DNA from: Pseudomonadota bacterium
GTDB taxonomy: Bacteria > Vulcanimicrobiota > Vulcanimicrobiia > Eremiobacterales > Eremiobacteraceae
Direction: 5' to 3'
Length of the DNA: 59,915 bases
Assembly: GCA_021325335.1 (NCBI GenBank)
Contig: JAJPHJ010000010.1
Location: 1 to 59,915 of the forward strand
The notes under the pieces were generated by a model. It was not told the origin of the DNA and ran no database searches. It worked only from the letters and a program-made list of their open reading frames with translations. The number at the start of each line of letters is the position of its first letter. Positions within the stretch are counted from its first letter, which is position 1. A program made the position numbers and the translations under genes. Shown piece after piece: positions 7,016 to 59,915 of this stretch.

Positions 7016-7933
7016 CTATTTCAAGAACGTCCCTTCGCGCAACTCCGCGAACGCCTCGCGCAGTTCGTCTTGGGTGTTCATGACGATCGGGCCGTACCAC
7101 GCCACCGGTTCTTCCAGCGGCTTGCCCGAGACCAAGAGGAAACGCACGCCGTCCTCTCCGGCTTGGACGGCTACCTCATCGCCGCTGTCGAACAGGACGA
7201 GCGAACGGTTGTCGGCGTCAGGCGGTGGGGCGGTGTCGAGCCAGCCGACCGATTCCGTCGGCACGGCCAAAGGACCCGAGGCGTTGCCGAACTTCGCATC
7301 TCCTGCGAAGACGTAAGCGAAGGCATGGCGGCTCGTGTCGACTTTGAGCGTCTTGCGCTGGCCCGGCGGCACGGTGACATCCAGGTAGATGGGATCGGCT
7401 GCGACGCCCGTGACCGGACCTTTCTTGCCCCAGAAACTTCCGCATACGACGCGCACCTGTGTGCCATCGTCATCAATCGCCGCAGGGATCTCGGCCGACT
7501 TGACCTCTTGATAGCGGGGTGCCGTCATCTTGAGCGATGACGGAAGGTTGGCCCAGAGTTGAAAGCCGTGCATGCGCCCGCTCTGGTCGCCTTTGGGCAT
7601 CTCTTGGTGGATGATGCCGCGGCCCGCGGTCATCCACTGCACGTCGCCGGCTGCGATGGTGCCCGCGTGACCCATGCTGTCCCCATGGTCGACCGTGCCG
7701 GCGAGCACGTAGGTGATCGTCTCGATGCCGCGATGCGGATGCCAGGGGAAACCGGCGAGATAGTCCGCCGGCACGTCGTTGCGAAAATCGTCGAGCAGCA
7801 GAAACGGATCGAAGTCCGAAGTATTGCCGAACCCGAAGGCACGGCGAAGATGAACGCCCGCACCCTCCAGCGTCGGTTTTGATTTGATCAGGCGTTTGAT
7901 CGGTCGAATCGACATGGATGGCGATTCAGCCAT
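7016..7933 (-). CDS. Pirin family protein
   Basis: 305 residues of bicupin. The N-terminal cupin contains FPWHPHRGIETITYVLAG and, ~40 residues on, MTAGRGIIHQEMP. Together these give the His-x-His, His and Glu metal ligands typical of pirins. The C-terminal cupin lacks these ligands, as usual. Bacterial pirins bind Fe(II) and some are quercetin 2,3-dioxygenases; others regulate pyruvate dehydrogenase or act in stress. Function here is open. A second Met at residue 7 (MSIRPIKRL) is an alternative start. The GNAT gene follows after 8 bases, and the small HTH gene precedes it by ~20 bases on the same strand. Confidence 0.88.
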   Translation of the reverse strand: MAESPSMSIRPIKRLIKSKPTLEGAGVHLRRAFGFGNTSDFDPFLLLDDFRNDVPADYLAGFPWHPHRGIETITYVLAGTVDHGDSMGHAGTIAAGDVQWMTAGRGIIHQEMPKGDQSGRMHGFQLWANLPSSLKMTAPRYQEVKSAEIPAAIDDDGTQVRVVCGSFWGKKGPVTGVAADPIYLDVTVPPGQRKTLKVDTSRHAFAYVFAGDAKFGNASGPLAVPTESVGWLDTAPPPDADNRSLVLFDSGDEVAVQAGEDGVRFLLVSGKPLEEPVAWYGPIVMNTQDELREAFAELREGTFLK

Positions 7934-47427: not shown

Positions 47428-48649
47428 GGCGCTTGAGATAGGTGAGGGCGGCGCGCAATTGCGGGTCGCGGCCGCGGGCGATGTCTGCGGGCGTCCGCGC
47501 GACGGTGATGTCGGGGGTGACCCCGCGTCCTTCGAGCGCAATGCCGCGCACGTCGCGCATGTCGAGCGTGGCGACGCGCAACAATCCACCGTCCGCGAGC
47601 CGTTCTTCCACCTCGACGCCGAGCACGTGCCGCGCCGTCGGCTCGCCGATGATGACCCCTCGATGATACGCTTGGAGCGCCGAGGCGAGAGCCTCCGCGC
47701 CGCTTTCGCTGGTCCCATCGACGAGAACGGCGAGCGTGCCATCGTAGCGGATCCCTGCATCAGCGGTCGCCGCGAAGCGCCGCCGGAAAAGCGAATAGCG
47801 CCCGGTGCCCGTCGCCACCAGCGCTCCCTCGGGCAAGAAGATGCCTGCCGTGGCGTCCACCGCGTCGATAAGTCCACCGGGATTTCCGCGCAGGTCGAGG
47901 ATCATGGCCGGGTGTCGTCCGATGTCCGAGACGGCCCAGCCCAGTTCTTCTTCGATGTTGTTCGGAAACGACGCCATCCGCAAGTAGCCCACGTCCGAAC
48001 CGATCGTGCCCCAATCAAGATCGGCGGGGATGACCGCGTCGTAGGATCTGCCCGGCACGATCGGCCGCAGCACCGTGCTCCACGAGCGCCCCGTCACCGG
48101 ATCGCGAATGGCGAGCGGTCCCCACGGCGCATGAGATCCAGCAACCGGTGCGCCTTCGGCGATGATGTAGCCAGGCCGCAGTCCCGCTGAGGCCGCGGGC
48201 GATCGCGGTGCCACTCGTGCGACGACTCGGTCACGCCCGATCGTCACGAAGACCGCGCCGGTCGTGCCGGCATCTGCAGCCTCCACGCCGTTGACTTCAT
48301 CCGGAGAGAAAACCGCGGTGTGGGAATCGCCTAAGCGAGCGACCATGGCCTGTAAGAGCTGATAGCGGCGATCCACCGTCGGAGCGCTTTCGACGAGCGG
48401 CCGATAGTGCGCGACGAGTCCGTCCCAATCGACGCCGTGGTAGGAGCGGTCGTAGTAGCGCACGGACACCGTCGTCGCCACCTGATCGAGCACGCGGTCG
48501 GCGATGGGCTCCGTCACCAGGCGATGCCGGATGAACAACACGACGCACGCAAGCCCAGCGATCGCTGCGAGGAATGCAAGGTTTCGTCGAATGAGCTTGC
48601 GCCGCCGGATGGGCCAATAGGGGACGGCCGCCGCCTCGAAGTCCATCAT
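47423..48649 (-). CDS. S41-family (C-terminal processing) peptidase homolog, membrane-anchored
   Basis: 408 residues from ATG 48649 (ATGA overlap with the upstream stop). One TM anchor (NLAFLAAIAGLACVVLFI, ~20-40) puts the rest in the periplasm. A helical region (~45-120), a PDZ-like domain (RVAPRSPAASAGLRPGYIIAEG) and the S41 core with LDLRGNPGGLIDAVDATAGIFL follow. The nucleophile region reads DGTSESGAEALASAL. The usual GEKTxGKG lysine loop reads GEPTARHVLGV, so the catalytic Lys of CtpA-type enzymes is not where expected. It may use another residue or be inactive. Confidence 0.82.
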   Translation of the reverse strand: MMDFEAAAVPYWPIRRRKLIRRNLAFLAAIAGLACVVLFIRHRLVTEPIADRVLDQVATTVSVRYYDRSYHGVDWDGLVAHYRPLVESAPTVDRRYQLLQAMVARLGDSHTAVFSPDEVNGVEAADAGTTGAVFVTIGRDRVVARVAPRSPAASAGLRPGYIIAEGAPVAGSHAPWGPLAIRDPVTGRSWSTVLRPIVPGRSYDAVIPADLDWGTIGSDVGYLRMASFPNNIEEELGWAVSDIGRHPAMILDLRGNPGGLIDAVDATAGIFLPEGALVATGTGRYSLFRRRFAATADAGIRYDGTLAVLVDGTSESGAEALASALQAYHRGVIIGEPTARHVLGVEVEERLADGGLLRVATLDMRDVRGIALEGRGVTPDITVARTPADIARGRDPQLRAALTYLKRL

Positions 48650-50196
48650 GGCCGGTGTGCCACGAGGTCGCCGGCGAGCCATTGCCCGAGCGTGGTGTGG
48701 CGGACCTCTTTCTCGCCGCCCAATTCACGGCGCAGTTCCTCGAGCGTGCAGGCGGATTCCGCTACCGCGTCGTGCTTGTGGATGCTCTCAAAATTGATCT
48801 GCCGGGCGAAGATAAACGTCGTGGCGGGAAAATCTTGCAGCACGTCGCCGCAGTAGCGCAGCATCTCGCGCACCACGTCCTCGACGAATCGCGGCGACTG
48901 ATGTGCCTTGTTCACGACGAACAACTCATCGGGGCGTTTGAGCAGATCGTACGTCTCAGACGACATGGACTGTTCGACGATCTCCACGAGCTGTTCGAGC
49001 GCGACGGGCCGGTCCGAGCCCACGAGCAGCGTCCCGACGCCCCGCTGATTGTGGGTCGCGATGGGCATCGCGTTCAAGATCTTCACTACCTGCTCTTCGC
49101 CAAAACCTTCGCCGAGGAGGCGCTCGCGAGACTGTTCGGCAACCATCGCCTGCGCGCAAGGGCACGCGGTCATGCCTTCGACCTCAACGCCGGCCAGACG
49201 ACGCGCAAAATCGGAGGCGACCACAGCCCGGGCGATCCCGGTATAGAACTCTCGCGTCGGCAACGCGCTCGCCGGAGTGGCTCGGGCGAGCGACAGTGGG
49301 GCGCGCAGGGCGACCTCCGCGCGCTCCGCGTGCTGGCTTTCGACAACGCGCTGCGCTACCGAGTGCGTCAAGTCCGCAAGGTTCGCACCGTCCCAGTGCA
49401 GCTCGGCCAGCGCGTCCTCGAGGTCTTGCGAGAAGCGCGACATGTGGACGCCGCTGTGTTCGGCATCGAGATCGGCATAGATGTCGACTGTGGCGATGAT
49501 CTGCTGCCCCAACTGGGATGCGTTCTCCAGGTGGATCAAGGTCCGGACGCCGGTGACGCCGACGCGGTTGAGAGCGAGGGGAACAAGCGGTCGCGACTCT
49601 TGCACGTCGCGCTGAACCCGGGTCAAAAGACCGCCCTCGTATACGGAAACCCCCGACCGGTCTATGGCTTTCGCCAACTCACCGATCGTCTTTCCGGATC
49701 GCGGATCGACGAGCTCGGGAGCGATCTCCGCGAGCGGCACGAGGACAAACGCCCGAGACGGAAGTCCGGGGTGCGGAATCGTGCAGATTTCTTCGTCTGA
49801 GATGACCGCGTCGTAGAGCAACAGATCCAGATCGATGGCTCGTGGACCCAAAGGGACCGTGTTGCGGCGCCCGACCTGCCGCTCGATCCGGGCCATCGCG
49901 TCGCGCAGAGCTTGCGGGTCGAGCGTCGTCCATCCGGTGCACGCGAGATTCAGGAAGTCGGGTTGATCCGTGAAGCCCACGGGCTTGGTTTCATATGCGC
50001 GCGAGATCCGGTCGATGCGGACGTAGCTGCGCAAGCGCGCGATCGCGGCAATGACGTTGCCGGAACGGTCGCCGATGTTAGAGCCGAGCGCGATCGCGAC
50101 GCGATGCTCGCTCGCGTGCTGAGAATTGAACGATGCCATGACCGCGCTTGATTGCTTCGTGTCGAGCAGTTTCGATTCCGTCATGCTCCTTGACAT
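48646..50196 (-). CDS. FolK-FolE2 fusion: HPPK plus GTP cyclohydrolase IB
   Basis: 516 residues at most; ATG at 50184 and 50139 are alternative starts, none with an ideal ribosome-binding site. Residues ~30-190 are HPPK (FolK): VAIALGSNIGDRSGN, ETKPVGFTDQPDFLN, GPRAIDLDLLLYD and IPHPGLPSRAFVLVPLAEIAP. Residues ~210-516 are GTP cyclohydrolase IB (FolE2): VTGVRTLIHLE, YADLDAEHSGVHMSRF, the catalytic Cys in EGMTACPCAQAMV and THNQRGVGTLLV. One chain therefore joins the first committed step of folate synthesis with the pyrophosphokinase step. Both catalytic sets look intact. It is coupled to the S41 gene by ATGA. A structured leader lies upstream. Confidence 0.93.
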   Translation of the reverse strand: MSRSMTESKLLDTKQSSAVMASFNSQHASEHRVAIALGSNIGDRSGNVIAAIARLRSYVRIDRISRAYETKPVGFTDQPDFLNLACTGWTTLDPQALRDAMARIERQVGRRNTVPLGPRAIDLDLLLYDAVISDEEICTIPHPGLPSRAFVLVPLAEIAPELVDPRSGKTIGELAKAIDRSGVSVYEGGLLTRVQRDVQESRPLVPLALNRVGVTGVRTLIHLENASQLGQQIIATVDIYADLDAEHSGVHMSRFSQDLEDALAELHWDGANLADLTHSVAQRVVESQHAERAEVALRAPLSLARATPASALPTREFYTGIARAVVASDFARRLAGVEVEGMTACPCAQAMVAEQSRERLLGEGFGEEQVVKILNAMPIATHNQRGVGTLLVGSDRPVALEQLVEIVEQSMSSETYDLLKRPDELFVVNKAHQSPRFVEDVVREMLRYCGDVLQDFPATTFIFARQINFESIHKHDAVAESACTLEELRRELGGEKEVRHTTLGQWLAGDLVAHRP

Positions 50197-50651: not shown

Positions 50652-53138
50652 ATGTCCATGTGGGAACCGTTCACCGAGCGCGCGCGCCGGTCCATCGTGC
50701 TGGCACAAGAAGAAGCGCAGCGGCTTGGGAACAACTACATCGGGACAGAGCACATCCTGCTCGGCATCATCAGCGAAGGCGAGAGCCTTGCCGCCAAAGT
50801 GTTGGAAACTTTAGGAGTCAACCTGGCGAAGGTCCGCGCTGAAGTTGAAGCGATCGTCGGCCGGGGCGGTCAGACCGTCCAGCAAGAGATGGTGTTCACC
50901 CCGCGCGCCAAACGCGTCATCGAGCTGGCTTTCGAAGAAGCGCGCCAGCTCAACCATAACTACATCGGTACCGAGCACCTGCTGCTCGGCCTGATCCGTG
51001 AAGGCGAAGGCGTCGCCGCTCGCGTCCTCACCAACCTCGGCGTGGACCCGGCCAAGGTCCGCGTCCAGACCACGTCGCTGCTCGGAGCCGAGTCACAGCC
51101 ACAGACGGCCTCCAAGGGCAAGAGCAAGACCCCGACGCTCGATGCCTACGGCCGCGATCTCACGCAGCTCGCCCGCGAGGGCAAGCTCGACCCGGTCATC
51201 GGGCGCAACACCGAGATCGAGCGCGTCATCCAGATCCTCTCGCGCCGAACGAAGAACAACCCCGCGCTCATCGGCGAGCCGGGCGTGGGCAAGACGGCCA
51301 TCGCCGAAGGCCTCGCCCAGCGCGTCATCAGCGGCGACGTGCCCGAACCGCTGCGCGACAAGCGGGTCATCACCCTCGACCTCGCGGGCCTCGTGGCCGG
51401 GACGAAGTACCGTGGCGAGTTCGAAGAGCGCATGAAGCGCGTCATGGACGAGATCCGCGCGGCTGCGGGCGAGATCATCCTCTTCATCGACGAGCTGCAC
51501 ACGCTCGTCGGCGCCGGCGCGGCAGAAGGCGCGATCGACGCGAGCAACATCATCAAACCAGCACTCGCGCGCGGTGAGCTCCAATGCATCGGCGCGACGA
51601 CCCTGAACGAATTCCGCAAGCACATCGAAAAAGACTCGGCGCTCGAACGGCGCTTCCAATCCATCATGGTGGGCGAGCCATCGGTCGAAGAGACGATCGA
51701 GATCCTCAAGGGCTTGCGGGATCGGTACGAAGCGCATCACCGCGTGAAGATCTCCGACGAGGCTCTGGACGCGGCGGCGCGGCTGTCCGATCGCTACATC
51801 ACGGATCGCTTCCTTCCGGACAAAGCGGTGGACCTCATGGATGAGGCCGCCTCGCGCGTACGCCTGCAATCCACGTCGCTGCCGCCGGAGATCCGCGAAG
51901 TCGAAAACGAGATCCGCAAGGTACGCGCGGAAAAAGAGGCGGTCATCAAGGCGCAGGAGTTCGAAAAAGCGGCGCAGATCCGGGATCGCGAGGAGAAGCT
52001 GCGCGCCCGCAAGACCCAGATGGAGGAAGCCTGGCGCGAGACCCGCACCGTGAAGGGTTCGACCACGAACACGGTCGGCCCGGAGGAGATCGCCCACATC
52101 GTCTCCACCTGGACCCGCATCCCCGTGAGCAAGCTCAAAGAAGAAGAGACGATGAAGCTGCTCAACATGGAGGAGGCGCTACACAAGCGCATCGTCGGAC
52201 AAGACGAGGCGATCAAGGTCATCACGCGAGCCATCCGTCGCGCAAGGGCAGGGCTCAAGAGTCCCATGCGCCCGATCGGTTCGTTCATCTTCCTCGGACC
52301 GACCGGCGTCGGCAAGACCGAGCTCGCGCGCACGCTCGCCGAGTTCCTCTTCGACGACGTCGACGCCATGGTGCGCATCGACATGTCGGAGTATATGGAG
52401 AAGTATTCCGTCTCGCGGCTCGTCGGAGCGCCGCCTGGCTATGTCGGCTACGAAGAGGGCGGACAGCTCACCGAAGCGGTGCGACGCAGGCCGTACGCGG
52501 TCGTACTGCTCGACGAGATCGAAAAGGCGCATCCCGACGTGTTCAACCTGCTGCTGCAAGTGCTCGAAGACGGACGCCTCACGGATTCGCAAGGCCGTGT
52601 GGTGGACTTCAAACACAGCCTCATCATCATGACGAGCAACGTTGGCACGACCGGCCTCATGAAGTCGGCCGAGATCGGATTCCGTCCCATCAAGGAAGAG
52701 GGTTCGACGACCATCCGTTACGAGCGGATGAAGAACAAGATCTTGGAGGAGGTCAAGCACCTCTTCCGGCCCGAGTTTCTCAACCGCATCGACGAAGTGG
52801 TCGTGTTCCACTCGCTCGAGCTCCACGAGATCAAGCAGATCGTCGCGCTCGAACTGGCCAAGGTGGTCAAGGAGCTGGAGAACCAGCGCGTGACCCTCGA
52901 AGCCACCGAAGCCGCCAAGGAGCTCATCGCCAAGGAAGGGTGGGACCCGCAGTTCGGTGCGCGCCCGCTGCGACGTGCCATCCAGCGGCTGGTCGAGGAT
53001 CCCTTGTCGGAAGAACTCTTACGGGGCAGCTTCAAGGTAGGCGACCACATCCAGTTAGACGTCGAGGACGGAAAAGCGGTCTTCCGCAAGATCGGCGAGC
53101 CGCTCAAACCGCCCGCTCCGCAACCAACCGGGTCGTAG
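50652..53138 (+). CDS. clpC: AAA+ unfoldase ClpC
   Basis: 828 residues; AAGGAGTC precedes the ATG. Two N-terminal Clp repeats ([39 protein letters not shown]), AAA1 with Walker [14 protein letters not shown] (~208), a UVR-type middle region ([20 protein letters not shown]), and AAA2 with [13 protein letters not shown] (~548). The C-terminal domain ends [24 protein letters not shown]. ClpC unfolds proteins for ClpP. The usual Firmicutes partners ctsR, mcsA and mcsB are not adjacent and no CIRCE or CtsR box was seen upstream. Several hairpins and palindromic repeats fill its leader. A terminator follows. Confidence 0.96.
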
Positions 53139-53167: not shown

Positions 53168-53197
53168 GGGCGGCTCGTCGAGCCGCCCTTCTTTTTC
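53168..53197 (+). terminator. Rho-independent terminator after clpC
   Basis: GGGCGGCTC (53168-53176), loop GTC, GAGCCGCCC (53180-53188), then TTCTTTTTC. It separates clpC from the partner-switching operon. Confidence 0.92.
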
Positions 53198-53276
53198 TGC
53201 AGGTGTAAGACCAGACGCCGCGGGGTAAGAAGTATTGAAGGGGACGTCAAAGTTCGTTCAAGGACGGACGAAGTCT

Positions 53277-55709
53277 ATGCGCATGTCGTATTTGCTGGGC
53301 CGGTTCGTTCGGGGTGAAATCTCAGCCCCGCTCAAATTTGGCTTGCTCGCGCTCTGCGCGGTGCTCATCGCCCTCACCGCGGTGCTCAACACCGACTATC
53401 CGCTCCTTCGTCTGAGCGTCTTGGCCTTGGTGTACATCATCGCCATCGATACGATCACGGGCTTTGCCTGGGGCGTGGCGGCAGCCATCATCAGCGCGCT
53501 CGTTTTCAGCGCCGCAGAATGGTTTAGCCCGCAGCCGGCGCTCCATGACTTCGCAATTTCTGATTTCTTCTCGCGGGTCGTCGCCTTCCTCATCGTCGTA
53601 GGCCTTGTGGAAGTCGTCCGGCGTCAGGGCTGGGCCTTAAGGGATGTCCAGCTGCGGGACCACGCCCTCGAGCTGTCTCGTTTGCAAGGCCAGCTCGCGG
53701 AGAATGACGCGCGCTTCCAGGCCGTCAGCGAGTCGATCCCCTTCGGTGTGTGGCATTGCAACGCCGAAGGCCGCGTGGTCTACATGAGCCGATCATTTCT
53801 CGACATGCTCGGGATGACGCTCGCCGACGTGCGCGCGGGCGGCTGGTTCGATCGCGTGCTCCCCGAAGACGCCGAACGCATCCGCGACGCCTGGCGCAAC
53901 CGCGAGCAATGGGGCGAGATGTGGGAGGATGAGTATCGCATCCTCGGGGCAGACGGTAAGATCTACTCGATCCTGTGCCGGGGAAGCGTGGTGCGCAACG
54001 AAGCAGGGGAGCGCATCGGCTGGACCGGCGTCAATTTGGATCTCACCGAACGCAGCATGGCGCGAGAACAGCTGCGTTTTTTGGTGGATGCGGGGCGCAC
54101 GCTCTCGCTCTCGCTCGACCCGATATCGGTCTTGGAGCGGATCGGGCAACTCGTCGTGCCGCGGATGTCCGACTGGTGCGCGATCGAAATAGCCAACGAG
54201 GGAGAGCTCCAGACGGTGGTGTTGCGTCACAAGAATCCAGACAAGCTCGACATCGTCCGCGAGCTGCGAGGCTATCCTCCGAACACGGAAACCGGCACCG
54301 CTCGCGTGCTGCGCACCGGGCAGTCCGAGCTCTACGAGGTCATCAGCAACGACCTTTTGGCGGCGGCGGGCGCGGCGCACGGGGAGCGCTATATGGAGCT
54401 CTTGGATCAGCTCGGCATGCGCTCGGCGATGGTGGTGCCGCTGCAGGCGCGCGACAAGATCCTCGGCACGATGACCTTCGTCCAGTCGGAATCGAACCGT
54501 TCCTTTAACGCAGATGACGTGCGATTTGCGGAGATGCTCGCGGCTCGCACCGCGCTCGCCTACGACAACGCGCGCAATTACGCCAAAGAACAACGCGTCG
54601 CCGACACCTTTCAACGCGCCTCGCTGCCGGTCAACCTGCCGCGCATTCCCGGCATCCGGCTGCGCGCGACCTACCTCTCCGGCGCCAAGGAGGCGGAAAT
54701 CGGCGGCGACTGGTACGACGCGTTTTTGTTGCCGAGCGGCGAGCTCGCGCTTTCTATAGGCGACGTGGCGGGCAAAGGTCTCAGCGCTGCGGTATCCATG
54801 GTGAGCGCACGGCAAGCTTTGCGTGGAGTGGCGCTCGAGGGCGCCTCACCCGGACAGGTGCTCAGCCGGGTCAACCAGCGCCTGACCTACGAAGGCAGCG
54901 GTATGGTCACGGCGCTCTTCGGCGTGCTCGACCCTGTCTCGTTACAGTTCCGCTTTGCCTGTGCCGGGCATCCACCGCCGCTACTCGCCCGCCCCCCGGG
55001 TGACGTGCAAAGAGTTTCAAACAAGGGTCTCCCGCTCGGGCTCTTCGCCGACCAGCAATACGAAGAGATCTCCGTCACGCTGGAGGCAGGAGCGATGCTG
55101 GTCCTCTACACCGACGGGCTCATCGAGTTCGACCACAACGTGAGCGCAGGCGAGAAGATATTGGAGCGCGCGGTGTCGGCCGAGGTCGCGACCCAGTCCC
55201 CCAATCCGGCCGAAGCCATCGCGCGCCGCGTCATCCTCGGATCGCCGAGCGACGACGTCGCCATCCTCACGGTCTCCGTCGCGCCCGCGCCGATGGAAGC
55301 GCTCGACTTGGTGGTGACGGCCGATCCGAGCTGCGCCCGGGTGCTGCGCCAAAGCCTGCGACGTTTCGCGCTCGGCGTCGGCATGGATGACACCCGTACG
55401 ACCGATCTCTTGGTGTCCTGCGGCGAAGCGATCAGCAACGTCATCGAGCACGCCTACGGCATCGGCGAAGGACCGCTCATGGTCCACGCCGTCCGCAATG
55501 ACGAAGAAGTGCTCATCTCGGTGAGCGACCATGGGAACTGGCGACCGCCGCGCGACGACGGAGGCGGCCGAGGGTTGCCGCTCATGCGGGCCCTGACAGA
55601 CAGGGTCGAGGTGGAACCAAACGAAAAGGGCACCACCGTTCACTTGCACATGTCGCTAGCAGGCTCCGTACGTGACCGATCAAGCAACCTTTCGACAAGA
55701 AGCCATTAA
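53277..55709 (+). CDS. Membrane PAS-GAF sensor with PP2C (RsbU/SpoIIE) phosphatase fused to RsbW-type kinase domain
   Basis: About 810 residues from ATG 53277. Order: three to four membrane helices (~15-105), a short coiled coil, PAS (~128-255, VSESIPFGVWHCNAEGRVVYMS), GAF (~260-435), PP2C/SpoIIE phosphatase (~445-640, with EIGGDWYDAF, GDVAGKGLSAA, LYTDGLIE and SDDVAIL metal/active residues) and HATPase_c_2 (~655-795, CGEAISNVIEHAYG, SDHGNWRPP, GRGLPLM). It both dephosphorylates and may phosphorylate a STAS antagonist, joining opposed activities in one chain. The STAS gene overlaps its end by 38 bases. It heads the operon that runs to the phosphofructokinase. Confidence 0.9.
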   Translation: MRMSYLLGRFVRGEISAPLKFGLLALCAVLIALTAVLNTDYPLLRLSVLALVYIIAIDTITGFAWGVAAAIISALVFSAAEWFSPQPALHDFAISDFFSRVVAFLIVVGLVEVVRRQGWALRDVQLRDHALELSRLQGQLAENDARFQAVSESIPFGVWHCNAEGRVVYMSRSFLDMLGMTLADVRAGGWFDRVLPEDAERIRDAWRNREQWGEMWEDEYRILGADGKIYSILCRGSVVRNEAGERIGWTGVNLDLTERSMAREQLRFLVDAGRTLSLSLDPISVLERIGQLVVPRMSDWCAIEIANEGELQTVVLRHKNPDKLDIVRELRGYPPNTETGTARVLRTGQSELYEVISNDLLAAAGAAHGERYMELLDQLGMRSAMVVPLQARDKILGTMTFVQSESNRSFNADDVRFAEMLAARTALAYDNARNYAKEQRVADTFQRASLPVNLPRIPGIRLRATYLSGAKEAEIGGDWYDAFLLPSGELALSIGDVAGKGLSAAVSMVSARQALRGVALEGASPGQVLSRVNQRLTYEGSGMVTALFGVLDPVSLQFRFACAGHPPPLLARPPGDVQRVSNKGLPLGLFADQQYEEISVTLEAGAMLVLYTDGLIEFDHNVSAGEKILERAVSAEVATQSPNPAEAIARRVILGSPSDDVAILTVSVAPAPMEALDLVVTADPSCARVLRQSLRRFALGVGMDDTRTTDLLVSCGEAISNVIEHAYGIGEGPLMVHAVRNDEEVLISVSDHGNWRPPRDDGGGRGLPLMRALTDRVEVEPNEKGTTVHLHMSLAGSVRDRSSNLSTRSH

Positions 55710-56022
55710 AGGCGTGCCGCTCGTCGTCGCGAGCGGGGAAATCGATCTTTCAAACGTCGACCAGTTCAAATCGTTCGTGCGCGAGGTGGCCGCAAATGAG
55801 AGCGGGCCGCTCGTCATCTCGCTAGGCGGCCTTTCATATCTCGACAGCCACATGCTCGAAGCATTGGTCGACACCGCCCGGCGGCTGCGCACGAACCGGC
55901 GCAGGCTCTTGGTGTCGGCGCCGACGGAGAGCCCTGCGGGTCACATCTTGCGGCTCACCGGGATCGAGCTCGCGATCGAAGTGTTCGAAAGCGACGAAGC
56001 GGCAATCGACAGCCTCGGATAA
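55672..56022 (+). CDS. STAS-domain anti-sigma factor antagonist
   Basis: 116 residues, GTG start inside the preceding gene. The STAS fold shows VPLVVASGEIDLSNVDQFKSFV, LVISLGGLSYLDSHMLEALV and LRLTGIELAIEVF. The phospho-Ser lies in LDSHM. Canonical antagonists read DSSGL or DSTGL, so the Ser is kept but the following Ser/Thr-Gly is replaced by His-Met. It would be the substrate of the fused phosphatase/kinase upstream, and perhaps of the RsbW-like protein at 58891. The next gene starts 6 bases after its stop. Confidence 0.88.
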   Translation: MTDQATFRQEAIKGVPLVVASGEIDLSNVDQFKSFVREVAANESGPLVISLGGLSYLDSHMLEALVDTARRLRTNRRRLLVSAPTESPAGHILRLTGIELAIEVFESDEAAIDSLG

Positions 56023-56028
56023 CGATAC

Positions 56029-56604
56029 ATGACGGTCGAGCTCCTCACCGCCATCGCTTCTGTCGGCACGCTTGTCGTCATCACCGCGGGATCCATCGCG
56101 GCGTTCGTCCAGCTGCGTCATTTGCGCAAGGGCAATCAGCTCTCCGGATTGCTCTCGGTGTTGGAGTTATTCCAACAGCCCCACTTCCACGAGCTCATCA
56201 ATTTCGTGCGCTCGGAGCTGCCGGAACGGATGAAAGACGATGCCTTCCGCGCTAGCCTCAAGCAGCTACCGGTCGACCGCCGCATCCACCCCGAACTTCA
56301 CGTCGCGGACCTGTACGAGGAGATCGGCTCGTACGTGCGCGCCGGGCTCATCGATGAGGATATGTTCTTGCTCGGTCACTGGCTGAACGTGCTGCTATAC
56401 TGGTCGCTCTTGGAGCCGTGCATGGAGATCGTGCGCCGTCATTCCCCTCATACGTTTGAGAACTTCGAGTTCCTCGCGGCTCGCGCGCTCATCTGGCGGG
56501 CGCGGCATCCGCAAGGCAACTATCCAGCGACGCTGCCCCGGGTGAGCGGTGACGCGCGCGCGGCTATCGTGCGCACGCCGGCCCGCGAAGAAGGTTGGGC
56601 ATGA
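56029..56604 (+). CDS. Membrane-anchored helical protein, DUF4760-like, paralog 1 of 3
   Basis: 191 residues. An N-terminal membrane helix (LTAIASVGTLVVITAGSIAAFV) leads into the shared QLRHLRKGNQLSGLLSVLELFQQP motif. A helical cytoplasmic domain follows, with HPELHVADLYEEIGSYVRAGLIDEDMFL and a closing block (HTFENFEFLAARALIWRARHPQGNYP). The following two genes are clear paralogs with the same layout. The function is not known. It is 6 bases after the STAS gene and coupled to paralog 2 by ATGA, so it belongs to the partner-switching operon. Confidence 0.75.
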   Translation: MTVELLTAIASVGTLVVITAGSIAAFVQLRHLRKGNQLSGLLSVLELFQQPHFHELINFVRSELPERMKDDAFRASLKQLPVDRRIHPELHVADLYEEIGSYVRAGLIDEDMFLLGHWLNVLLYWSLLEPCMEIVRRHSPHTFENFEFLAARALIWRARHPQGNYPATLPRVSGDARAAIVRTPAREEGWA

Positions 56605-57164
56605 ACTGGGAGGAGATCTCGGCGATCTCAACCTTCATCACGATGATCGTCATCGCGGCGTCGGCCATCGCTGCGGTCGTCCAACTACGGCACATGCGCG
56701 CGAGCAACGCCATTACCGGTTTTTTAGGGTTCATGGACAAGTGGTCGAGTCCCGAAGCGCGCGAGATCGCGAACTACGTGTTCGGCGAAGCGATGCAGCG
56801 CAAGCTTGCGGATCCTGCATATCGCGAGGAGCTCCTCACCGCGCCGCTGGTCGACCGCCTCCGTCACCCTGAATTCCAGTACCTCGACTTTTGGGAGTCG
56901 ATCGGCGGCTTCCTGAAGCTCGGCTATTTCGCCGAAGACGTCGTCATGGAGTCCGGTGGCCCCGTCGCGCTGCGGGCCTGGGGCGTCCTTATGCCCGTCA
57001 TCGCCATCCGCCGGCGAGTGGGCGGGCAGACCCTCTATGACAATTTCGAATATCTCGTCTCGCGCGCCATCATGTGGGAGAACAAACATCCCGAAGGCGT
57101 CTTCCCCCACAACACGCCGCACCTTTCGGTGAAGGATCCCGGCGCGGCCGGGAACTCCTCGTGA
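56601..57164 (+). CDS. Membrane-anchored helical protein, DUF4760-like, paralog 2 of 3
   Basis: About 187 residues from ATG 56601, overlapping the previous stop (ATGA). N-terminal helix ISTFITMIVIAASAIAAVV, shared motif QLRHMRASNAITGFLGFMDKW, then HPEFQYLDFWESIGGFLKLGYFAEDVV and the closing block QTLYDNFEYLVSRAIMWENKHPEGVFP. The final HPEG-x-(Y/F)-P matches its neighbours. No catalytic motif is seen. Its stop overlaps the start of paralog 3 (GTGA). Confidence 0.75.
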   Translation: MNWEEISAISTFITMIVIAASAIAAVVQLRHMRASNAITGFLGFMDKWSSPEAREIANYVFGEAMQRKLADPAYREELLTAPLVDRLRHPEFQYLDFWESIGGFLKLGYFAEDVVMESGGPVALRAWGVLMPVIAIRRRVGGQTLYDNFEYLVSRAIMWENKHPEGVFPHNTPHLSVKDPGAAGNSS

Positions 57165-57727
57165 GCGACGTCAGCCTGAGCACGATCTTCGCGGGCGCGA
57201 CGTTCGTCGTGATCGCGGCGACCGCCATCGCTGCAGTGGTTCAGCTGCGGCACCTGCGTGCGAGCAACCAGCTCAACGCGATGCTCACCATCATGGAACT
57301 GTGGAACGAGCCCGCCTTGCAGGATCAGATCGCGTACGTCCGCGGCGACCTGCAGCGCAAGATCAAGGATGGGGGGTACGTCGCAGACCTGCAATTGGAA
57401 ATCGCCAAGGGTCCGGTCACCCGTTCAGGCCATCCGGAATTCTTCGTGCTCGATCTTTGGGAACAAGTCGGCGCGTTCATGAAGTATGGCCTCATCGACG
57501 AGGCTCCGCTGCTCGATATCGTCGCCCCGCAAGTCCTCGGAACGTGGAGCCAGCTGGAACCTATCGTCGCCTGCCTGCGCGAGCGCTTTGGCGCATCCGC
57601 CTTCGAAAACGTCGAATACGCCGCAGTGCGCTCGAGATTGTGGCTCGACCGTCACCCTGAGGGGACCTATCCGAGAGGCACCCCGCGGATGCGTGAAGTG
57701 CTCGCCAGGAGGGCGGTGGAGCGATGA
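57161..57727 (+). CDS. Membrane-anchored helical protein, DUF4760-like, paralog 3 of 3
   Basis: 188 residues from GTG 57161. N-terminal helix IFAGATFVVIAATAIAAVV, shared motif QLRHLRASNQLNAMLTIMELW, then HPEFFVLDLWEQVGAFMKYGLIDEAPL and the closing block SAFENVEYAAVRSRLWLDRHPEGTYP. Closest in motif to paralog 2, so the three arose by tandem duplication. Its stop overlaps the phosphofructokinase start (ATGA), so translation is coupled from the STAS region into glycolysis. Confidence 0.75.
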   Translation: MSDVSLSTIFAGATFVVIAATAIAAVVQLRHLRASNQLNAMLTIMELWNEPALQDQIAYVRGDLQRKIKDGGYVADLQLEIAKGPVTRSGHPEFFVLDLWEQVGAFMKYGLIDEAPLLDIVAPQVLGTWSQLEPIVACLRERFGASAFENVEYAAVRSRLWLDRHPEGTYPRGTPRMREVLARRAVER

Positions 57728-58971
57728 GCGAGCGGCGGCTCGGCATTTTGGTCGGTGGAGGCCCAGCGCCCGGCATCAACGGGGTCATCGCCGCGGCGAC
57801 GATCGAGGCCATCAATGAAGGCTGCCGCGTGACCGGCATCTACGACGGTTACCAGTGGTTGGCCCGAGGCGACGCCTCGCACGTGGCCGAGCTCCATATC
57901 GAAGACGTCAGCCGGATCCATTGGCTCGGTGGATCCGTATTGCGGACGTCGCGCACGAACCCGGCGAAAGACGAGCAGTCGCTCGATCACGCAGTGCACA
58001 CGCTGCGCGAGCTCGGCGTGACGGATCTGCTGTGCATCGGCGGTGACGACACCACGTTTGGTGCAGCGCGCATCGCCGAGCGCGCTGCGGGCGCCTTGCG
58101 CGTCGCCACCGTGCCCAAGACGATCGACAACGACCTGCCGCTGCCGGACAACATGCCGACCTTCGGTTTTGAGACTGCGCGCGCGGTCGGCACGAATATC
58201 GTGGAAAGCCTCATGGAGGACGCGCGCACCACGACCCGCTGGTATCTCGTCGTCACCATGGGCAGAAAGTCCGGCGCGCTCGCGCTCGGCATCGCCAAGG
58301 CCGCGGGCGCCACGACGGCCGTCATCCCTGAAGAGTTCCATGGACACGCGGTGCCGCTGCATCTGGTCGCGGATTCACTCGCCGGCAGCATCATCAAACG
58401 TCGCGTGTCCGGTCACGACCACGGCGTCGCGGTCATCGCGGAAGGCGTCGCGGAGAGCCTCGAACCGAACGAACTCGCGTCGATGTCGAGCGCGGCCAAG
58501 GACGCGTACGGGAACGTCCGGCTCACCGAGGTGGACCTCGGCGACATCATCAAGCGTTCGCTCGGCGAGCGCTTGAACGCGCTCGGTCTGACCACGACCC
58601 TCGTCGTCAAAGACATCGGCTACGAACTGCGCTGCGCCAAACCGGTGGCGTTCGACGTGGAGTATGCGCGCACGCTCGGCTACGGCGCGGTGCGCTACCT
58701 GCTTTCGGGCGGCTCCGGCGCGATGGTCGCGCTGCGCGGCGGAAAGGTCGCGCCGGTGACGTTGTCCGAGATGCTCGACCCGAAAAGCGGGCGGATCAAA
58801 GTGCGTCTGGTGGACACGGGCACCGAGGCATACGAGGTGGGGCGCAAGTACATGATCCGGCTCGAGCCGGCCGACCTGCAAGAGCCGCGCTTATCCCTCC
58901 TCGCGGCGGTGACCCGACTGACCCCTGCCCAATTTCAAGAGCGCTTTCAGCCGGTCGTGGACGGCGCCTAA
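57724..58971 (+). CDS. 6-phosphofructokinase, PPi-dependent type by active-site residues
   Basis: 415 residues. GILVGGGPAPGINGVI opens the PFK fold. The nucleotide/phosphate site reads CIGGDDTTFGAA (GGDDT ~106-110) and PKTIDND (~131-137). ATP enzymes have GGDGS/T and PGTIDND; Asp and Lys at these two points mark PPi-dependent PFK. Also present: FGFETARAVGTNIVESL, VVTMGRKSGALALG and IPEE. It converts fructose-6-phosphate and PPi to fructose-1,6-bisphosphate reversibly. It is the last gene of the partner-switching operon (ATGA overlap). Its 3' end overlaps a convergent gene by 81 bases. Confidence 0.92.
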   Translation: MSERRLGILVGGGPAPGINGVIAAATIEAINEGCRVTGIYDGYQWLARGDASHVAELHIEDVSRIHWLGGSVLRTSRTNPAKDEQSLDHAVHTLRELGVTDLLCIGGDDTTFGAARIAERAAGALRVATVPKTIDNDLPLPDNMPTFGFETARAVGTNIVESLMEDARTTTRWYLVVTMGRKSGALALGIAKAAGATTAVIPEEFHGHAVPLHLVADSLAGSIIKRRVSGHDHGVAVIAEGVAESLEPNELASMSSAAKDAYGNVRLTEVDLGDIIKRSLGERLNALGLTTTLVVKDIGYELRCAKPVAFDVEYARTLGYGAVRYLLSGGSGAMVALRGGKVAPVTLSEMLDPKSGRIKVRLVDTGTEAYEVGRKYMIRLEPADLQEPRLSLLAAVTRLTPAQFQERFQPVVDGA

Positions 58972-59427
58972 TCCGGTCTTGGGCGCCAGCCCGTTGGTGC
59001 TCGCGGATTCGCCGTCGGCAGGGACCCCTCGCAGCGTATATTTGGTCAAGCGCACCGACGTGCCCGAGCGCTTCGTGGTGAAGGAGACGTCGTCCATGAG
59101 CGAGCGCATGATGAAGATACCGAGGCCGCGCGTCGCCAGCGCTTCTGGTTCGCAGCGTTCGCCTTTGCCGCGCGGATCGAAACCCGTGCCTTGGTCCGTG
59201 ACCTCGATGTTGAGCTCACCCTTTTTGTAAGCGCAGAACACGCTGAAAGAACCGGCGGAGACATGGCCGTGCTCTGCTGCGTTGTTGCAGGCCTCGCCGA
59301 CGGCCAGCGTGATGTCCCCGACGTCGAACGGAAGCAGCCCGCAGCCGCGGGCGAACGTCGCCACGTCGTGTCTGGCCTTGGAGACAGAGGAATAATTGCT
59401 GGAATATTGCCGCCGGAAGGTTCTCAT
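58891..59427 (-). CDS. RsbW-type anti-sigma factor serine kinase (HATPase_c_2)
   Basis: About 178 residues from ATG 59427; a GTG at 59457 is possible. GHKL ATPase marks: N-box TLAVGEACNNAAEHGH, G1 VTDQGTGFDPRG and G2 ATRGLGIFIMRSL. No DHp or transmembrane region is present, as in RsbW/SpoIIAB/BtrW anti-sigma kinases. It would phosphorylate a STAS antagonist and bind a sigma factor or other target. It converges on the phosphofructokinase with an 81-base overlap. The nearest STAS protein is at 55672. Confidence 0.88.
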   Translation of the reverse strand: MRTFRRQYSSNYSSVSKARHDVATFARGCGLLPFDVGDITLAVGEACNNAAEHGHVSAGSFSVFCAYKKGELNIEVTDQGTGFDPRGKGERCEPEALATRGLGIFIMRSLMDDVSFTTKRSGTSVRLTKYTLRGVPADGESASTNGLAPKTGLGAVHDRLKALLKLGRGQSGHRREEG

Positions 59428-59492
59428 GGATGAGCCACGCGCGTCCTTCCGTACCACATTCCCAAACCGGCGGGCTCAAAACCTCGACGCAC

Positions 59493-59915
59493 TTAGGACT
59501 TCGCTCCGATCCACGTATCGGCGACCAGGTTCGTGCCGAAAAAGTAACCGAGCTCGCGATAGTCGCCTGTGACGAGTTGGACGATGTCGGCTCGCTTTCC
59601 GGCTGTCAAGCTGCCGATCTCGCCCGCGAGTCCGAGCGAGTAGGCCGCGTTGAGGGTGATGGCCGCGAGCGCCTCTGGTGCGGTCAATCCCATCCAGCGC
59701 CGCGCAAGCGACACGACGGTTTGCAAGGAGAAGCACGGACAGGTCCCCGGATTGAAATCAGTCGCGAGCGCGACGGGCACTCCTTCGTCCATCAGGCGTC
59801 GCGCGGGCGCGAAGCGCTCGAGGTCGAGGTATTCGACCGTGCCCGGGCACAAGACCGCGATGCAACCCGCCGCGGCGAGCTCCTCGATCTGCCGCGCTCC
59901 GACGAAATTGAGATG
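59493..59915 (-). CDS. hutI: Imidazolonepropionase, C-terminal part (cut by window edge)
   Basis: The frame is open to the right edge, so the N-terminal ~270 residues lie outside. The visible ~140 residues match HutI: HLNFVGARQIEELAAAG, VLCPGTVEYL, the metal/substrate region VALATDFNPGTCPCFSLQ and the C-terminal amidohydrolase return strand SLTAGKRADIVQL. HutI hydrolyses 4-imidazolone-5-propionate to N-formimino-glutamate in histidine breakdown. Other hut genes would be expected beyond the edge. Confidence 0.88.
   Translation of the reverse strand, partial: HLNFVGARQIEELAAAGCIAVLCPGTVEYLDLERFAPARRLMDEGVPVALATDFNPGTCPCFSLQTVVSLARRWMGLTAPEALAAITLNAAYSLGLAGEIGSLTAGKRADIVQLVTGDYRELGYFFGTNLVADTWIGAKS

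Follow-up and report, generated by a model that had tools for sequence, protein, structure and literature searches.

Gene content and layout of the locus

We analysed a stretch of 59,915 nucleotides (nt), contig JAJPHJ010000010.1 of an Eremiobacteraceae bacterium (hereafter the window), from a draft genome of 2.39 Mb in 149 contigs. Near the end of the window lies a run of six genes in which two proteins of the partner-switching type, a fused phosphatase/kinase sensor and a STAS protein, stand upstream of three DUF4760 proteins and a pyrophosphate (PPi)-type phosphofructokinase (PFK, gene pfk). The locus was compared across a family sample of 14 Eremiobacterota genomes from 9 genera, comprising the window genome and 13 relatives (G000-G013), by BLAST and with profiles built from the window's family, which distant relatives could escape. 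Open reading frame (ORF) and family searches identified the following:

53277-58971, plus strand: six-gene run, PAS-GAF-SpoIIE-HATPase, STAS, three DUF4760, PPi-type PFK
53277..55709, plus strand: bifunctional sensor with a membrane N-terminus, PAS, GAF, SpoIIE-type PPM phosphatase and C-terminal HATPase_c_2 kinase
55672..56022, plus strand: STAS-only protein of the anti-anti-sigma type (PF01740, 4e-13), overlapping the sensor gene by 38 nt
56029..56604, plus strand: DUF4760 protein D1 (1.9e-9), with an N-terminal hydrophobic segment and an orthologue in G001 (tree support 100/100)
56601..57164, plus strand: DUF4760 protein D2 (1.9e-10), with orthologues at the equivalent site in other genera (clade 100/99)
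57161..57727, plus strand: DUF4760 protein D3 (9.4e-11), GTG start, 4-nt overlap with pfk (clade 86/86)
57724..58971, plus strand: PPi-type phosphofructokinase (NF041103, 580 bits against the NCBIfam cut-off of 550)

These searches recovered every gene listed in a preliminary description of this DNA. Its claim that the genes are coupled by overlaps or gaps of a few bases also agrees with the junctions read from the sequence, which are, in gene order, a 38-nt overlap, a 6-nt gap and three 4-nt overlaps. Such spacing of six same-strand genes excludes chance and is, judged by the sequence, the layout of one ordinary, tightly coupled operon, and the six genes are probably co-transcribed as a single transcript. 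The stop codon of clpC is at 53138, ahead of the run, and the locus as a whole follows a frame found across the family (folKE2 / clpC / slot / pfk / convergent rsbW-like gene).

The SpoIIE domain of the sensor (PF07228, 7.5e-43) carries the motifs IGGDWYDAF, GDVAGKG, YTDGL and SDDVAIL, with intact acidic metal-binding motifs, and the HATPase_c_2 domain (PF13581, 1.2e-18) carries EAISN, DHGNW and GRGLPL; these motifs and the membrane N-terminus were recognised by inspection. The GTG start of the STAS gene is backed by an MTxQAxF-like N-terminus common to relatives, and alignment to TM1442 and SpoIIAA places a serine at the phosphoserine position of SpoIIAA (YLDSHML versus FMDSSGL). RsbW/SpoIIAB-like HATPase_c_2 kinases occur twice at the locus, as the C-terminal domain of the sensor and as a separate convergent gene.

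All three DUF4760 proteins score above the Pfam cut-off of 25 for PF15956 (38.2, 41.5 and 42.5 bits). A homology search against solved structures gave chance-level matches only, and no homologues of D3 were found on plasmids. We also considered the triplet as defence or phage genes and rejected this, as there was no PADLOC match and the PHROG matches were weak and pointed to a PHROG of unknown function. The number of DUF4760 copies per family genome ranges from 2 to 24, and the window genome has 11, mostly scattered.

No PF00365 protein other than this PFK was found in the window genome. The enzyme resembles the Thermotogales-type PPi-PFK of NF041103, with a score above the curated cut-off and with GGDD and PKTIDND, as in a solved PPi-dependent enzyme; the motifs and the family score together predict PPi-dependent donor use. 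It differs from this type in its DUF4760 context, which among the loci examined was seen only in the window's family.

Terminator, promoter candidates and the convergent gene

The preliminary description had overlooked the terminator, the operon's promoter candidate and the convergent RsbW-like gene, listed here together with the promoter candidate of the latter:

53168..53188, plus strand: intrinsic terminator after clpC, strong, with a 9-bp stem and the tail TTCTTTTTCT; separates clpC from the operon
53203..53228, plus strand: SigB/SigF-type promoter candidate, GTGTAA-N14-GGGTAA, 10 of 12 to GTTTAA/GGGTAT
58891..59427, minus strand: RsbW-like HATPase_c_2 gene, stop at 58891; convergent, 3′ end overlapping pfk by 81 nt
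59458..59482, minus strand: SigB/F-type promoter candidate of the RsbW-like gene, GTTTTG-N13-GGGAAT, 30 nt ahead of its ATG

The SigB consensus is GTTTAA-N15(±2)-GGGTAT (PMC9847131). The candidate at 53203-53228, which lies between the clpC terminator and the sensor gene, fits the pattern of a SigB/F regulon promoter and may be recognised by a sigma factor of this kind. No other plus-strand site in the window reaches 10 of 12, a score expected by chance about 0.6 times per strand in 60 kb.

For the RsbW-like gene we chose the ATG at 59427 over the GTG of the longest ORF at 59457 because the proteins of relatives begin with MRxxxRR. The gene is kept in 13 of the 14 family genomes, G007 being the exception. 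Upstream motifs were scored with the literature cores GTTTA and GGGTA at a gap of 14-16 nt and a maximum of 10, and all 13 genomes with the gene reached best scores of 8-10. These were higher than the scores of clpC and folKE2 orthologues in the same genomes (6-8; p 2.8e-6) and of other genes (p 2.6e-10), and none of 300 shuffles reached their sum.

A convergent gene kept in place in 13 of 14 genomes, this promoter candidate and, in several genomes, a 3′ end that overlaps pfk would all suit a closed local switch, in which the operon's STAS protein and the RsbW-like protein are partners and the overlapping 3′ ends add antisense interference on pfk. We consider such a switch highly improbable. 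The length of the overlap varies and in some genomes there is a gap instead; moreover, relatives without STAS at the locus also have the RsbW-like gene, which therefore did not originate as the partner of the operon's STAS protein.

Linkage at the pfk locus in relatives

The pfk locus could be assessed in 12 relatives, since the contig of G003 stops at pfk. The unit conserved in the family is clpC, none to three DUF4760 genes and pfk, together with the convergent RsbW-like gene. Linkage of DUF4760 with pfk, which the preliminary description had proposed to check, together with STAS, by synteny, is kept in 8 of the 12 assessable relatives, and in several genera the two genes still overlap or lie within a few nt of each other. 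Seven of these relatives (G002, G004, G005, G006, G011, G012 and G013) lack SpoIIE-STAS and carry DUF4760 in two or three copies, although the two called DUF4760 ORFs of G006 overlap and may be a single damaged gene. In the remaining four relatives (G007-G010) pfk directly follows clpC. Neither DUF4760 nor STAS was found within the fetched flanks of 27 pfk loci from the same class but other families, or of about 48 from other lineages.

The SpoIIE-STAS pair behaves differently. It occupies the slot beside pfk in only 2 of the 13 assessable genomes, the window genome and G001, and at different positions: the order in G001 is D1-D2-D3-SpoIIE-STAS-pfk, with identical parts rearranged. The preliminary description had named unlinked genes in relatives as an outcome that would count against it, and in 11 of the 12 assessable relatives the pair was found to be absent from the pfk locus. 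In one genome of another family (G038, L051 10068-15301) pfk is followed downstream by two SpoIIE-type genes, of which the nearer is on the opposite strand.

In the sensor tree, the pfk-linked copies of the window genome and G001 form one clade (100/99), so that a single origin followed by rearrangement is likely. Their sister branch (86/89) holds a G013 copy unlinked to pfk and a G011 copy at a contig end. The DUF4760 tree also joins window and G001 copies in the D1 clade (100/100), while the D2 clade spans genera (100/99), the D3 clade is weaker (86/86) and the included dispersed copies of the window genome stand apart (84/84). On these trees, the linkage of DUF4760 with pfk predates that of SpoIIE-STAS with pfk. 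The pairing of DUF4760 with PPi-PFK thus stands out as conserved. A partner switch acting directly on central carbon metabolism and free of any sigma factor, in which DUF4760 proteins would hold PPi-PFK at the membrane or regulate it there and SpoIIE-STAS, in two genera, would set this complex by phosphorylation, seems to us very unlikely.

Unlinked switch pairs and sigma factors in trans

At least six relatives (G001, G003, G004, G005, G010 and G013) carry homologous SpoIIE-STAS pairs on other contigs. Three of these unlinked pairs adjoin a sigma gene of the SigB/SigF/SigG family (G001:C237, G003:C35 and G010:C97). Their neighbours are otherwise varied, and none of the pairs examined has DUF4760 or PFK nearby. 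Proteins with a MEDS domain adjoin the pairs in G013 (L059 2559-3386) and G004 (L065 8124-8954). Near a pair in L065, a SigB/F-type promoter candidate was also seen for a DUF892 protein (7123-7725).

The preliminary description had stated that no sigma factor is here. This stands for the cluster, as none of the genes identified between 48.6 kb and the window end encodes a sigma factor, and it does not extend to the genome: contig C105 holds a STAS-RsbW-SigF locus and contig C50 an RsbW-SigB locus, both with sigma factors above the TIGR02980 cut-off. Because these SigF and SigB loci exist in trans, the lack of a sigma gene within the operon is no sign of an output that bypasses sigma factors.

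A sigma-independent switch would have the STAS protein, set by the sensor, bind the DUF4760 membrane proteins or PFK and so alter membrane or glycolytic activity. The tight coupling of all six genes and the close DUF4760-pfk junctions in several genera are consistent with it, and there are precedents with non-sigma targets in SiaABC and HsbA/HsbD of Pseudomonas aeruginosa, which likewise consist of a phosphatase, a kinase and a phosphorylatable antagonist-like protein (PMC7647112). We nevertheless regard this switch as unlikely. SpoIIE-STAS is missing at pfk in all but one of the assessable relatives, homologous pairs at other loci are not flanked by DUF4760 or PFK genes, and both sigma loci and sigma-type promoter candidates exist. 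The output of the Pseudomonas systems is a diguanylate cyclase (PMC7647112), whereas no gene for one was identified at the operon; the precedents are real, yet nothing at the window locus favours a sigma-free direct output. The direct control of metabolism or membrane processes envisaged in the preliminary description is thus left unsupported by the pfk loci of relatives without SpoIIE-STAS, the pairs beside sigma genes, the sigma loci in trans and the promoter candidates. Together, these observations suggest that the switch acts via a stress sigma factor of the ordinary kind, with its gene elsewhere in the genome, rather than by direct enzyme control.

Distribution of the promoter motif

Motif scores of 9 or more were found upstream of 7 of 29 partner-switch genes compared with 2 of 207 others (Fisher p 6e-6). 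One of the seven is the window operon; G003 and G010 contribute their sigma and STAS genes, G005 its SpoIIE gene and G010 also its RsbW-like gene. Across the 14 genomes, the GTTTA-GGGTA pair had 42 matches at gaps of 13-17 and 15 at gaps of 23-27.

A SigB/F promoter after clpC was also sought in relatives and rejected, since the scores were at background in all relatives but G013; the score of 8 there (shuffle p 0.09) lies at the start of a DUF4760 gene. Hairpins lie directly 3′ of the clpC stop in several relatives (L020, L022, L028 and L030), and in G002 and G012 the DUF4760 start codon is apparently at an arm of the hairpin following clpC.

A proposed additional sensor arm with its sigma factor in trans

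We lean, with modest confidence, towards the SpoIIE-STAS pair being an extra sensor arm of a SigB/F-type partner switch whose sigma factor is encoded in trans, by which DUF4760 and pfk have been brought under stress control. The PAS/GAF sensor would detect a signal; its HATPase domain would phosphorylate STAS at the conserved serine, and its SpoIIE domain would strip the phosphate. Dephosphorylated STAS might then capture an RsbW-type anti-sigma factor, encoded on either C105 or C50, or else the RsbW-like product of the convergent gene, and this capture would release SigB/F. The released sigma factor would read the promoter at 53203-53228, and DUF4760 and pfk would be transcribed alongside the arm itself; since SigB/F would be reading the operon's promoter, we propose that the arm amplifies itself. 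SigB/F may also transcribe the convergent rsbW-like gene, a possible brake. The pair would have entered the older clpC-DUF4760-pfk block through duplication, and the DUF4760 proteins are treated here as presumed membrane-anchored helpers.

Several points weigh against this proposal. No good motif site was found upstream of SpoIIE in G001 or of DUF4760 or pfk in relatives, and sigma control of pfk would therefore be specific to the window genome. The STAS-RsbW-SigF operon, which is always present, likewise lacks the motif directly upstream. A reversed-pattern control was frequent too in the genome-wide spacing count, which makes that enrichment modest evidence; the motif question was posed after inspection of the operon, with the consensus taken from the literature, and the genomes in the motif statistics are related and hence dependent samples. 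Finally, because no second PF00365 gene was found in the window genome, exclusive control of pfk by a stress sigma factor would be odd, and internal promoters are possible.

The duplicated pair could also be a bystander that came to lie upstream of DUF4760-pfk and shares its transcript, the switch and its sigma factor having no selected role in pfk expression. Linkage confined to two genomes with differing positions would fit this, as would the assorted neighbours of unlinked pairs and the fact that unrelated genes can share operons. Against it, the pair has been retained in two genera with a common origin, and the terminator and promoter candidate would make the whole operon one sigma-type unit in the window genome. 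We see this bystander explanation as possible, although doubtful.

The proposed sensor arm has counterparts in known systems. It shares with RsbU/RsbP-RsbV-RsbW-SigB of Bacillus subtilis a PPM phosphatase, a STAS protein with a serine at the conserved phosphorylation position, HATPase kinases, SigB/F sigma factors and promoters of the GTTTAA-N14/15-GGGTAT type (PMC9847131). It differs in that the phosphatase and kinase are fused, no sigma gene is local and the genes are joined to DUF4760 and pfk. In Synechocystis, the icfG cluster contains the phosphatase IcfG, antagonists, a kinase and the isoamylase slr1857, and the kinase Slr1861 is an anti-sigma factor of SigC, which is not among the listed genes of the cluster (PMC12329169). 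This is a close parallel, with partner-switch genes clustered with a carbohydrate enzyme (PMC12329169); however, the enzyme there is an isoamylase instead of PFK, DUF4760 is lacking, and kinase and phosphatase are separate proteins.

If the proposed arm is real, a stress input was duplicated into the operon of the genome's only PF00365 PFK, and a new promoter placed this glycolytic step under stress control. The proposal yields a promoter motif and a sigma circuit open to testing in Eremiobacterota.

Two further genes flank the locus. HPPK (FolK) and GTP cyclohydrolase FolE2 are fused in a single ORF (48646-50196, minus strand) that is divergent from clpC and kept across the family, and an imidazolonepropionase (HutI) gene (59493-59915, minus strand) is cut by the window end.

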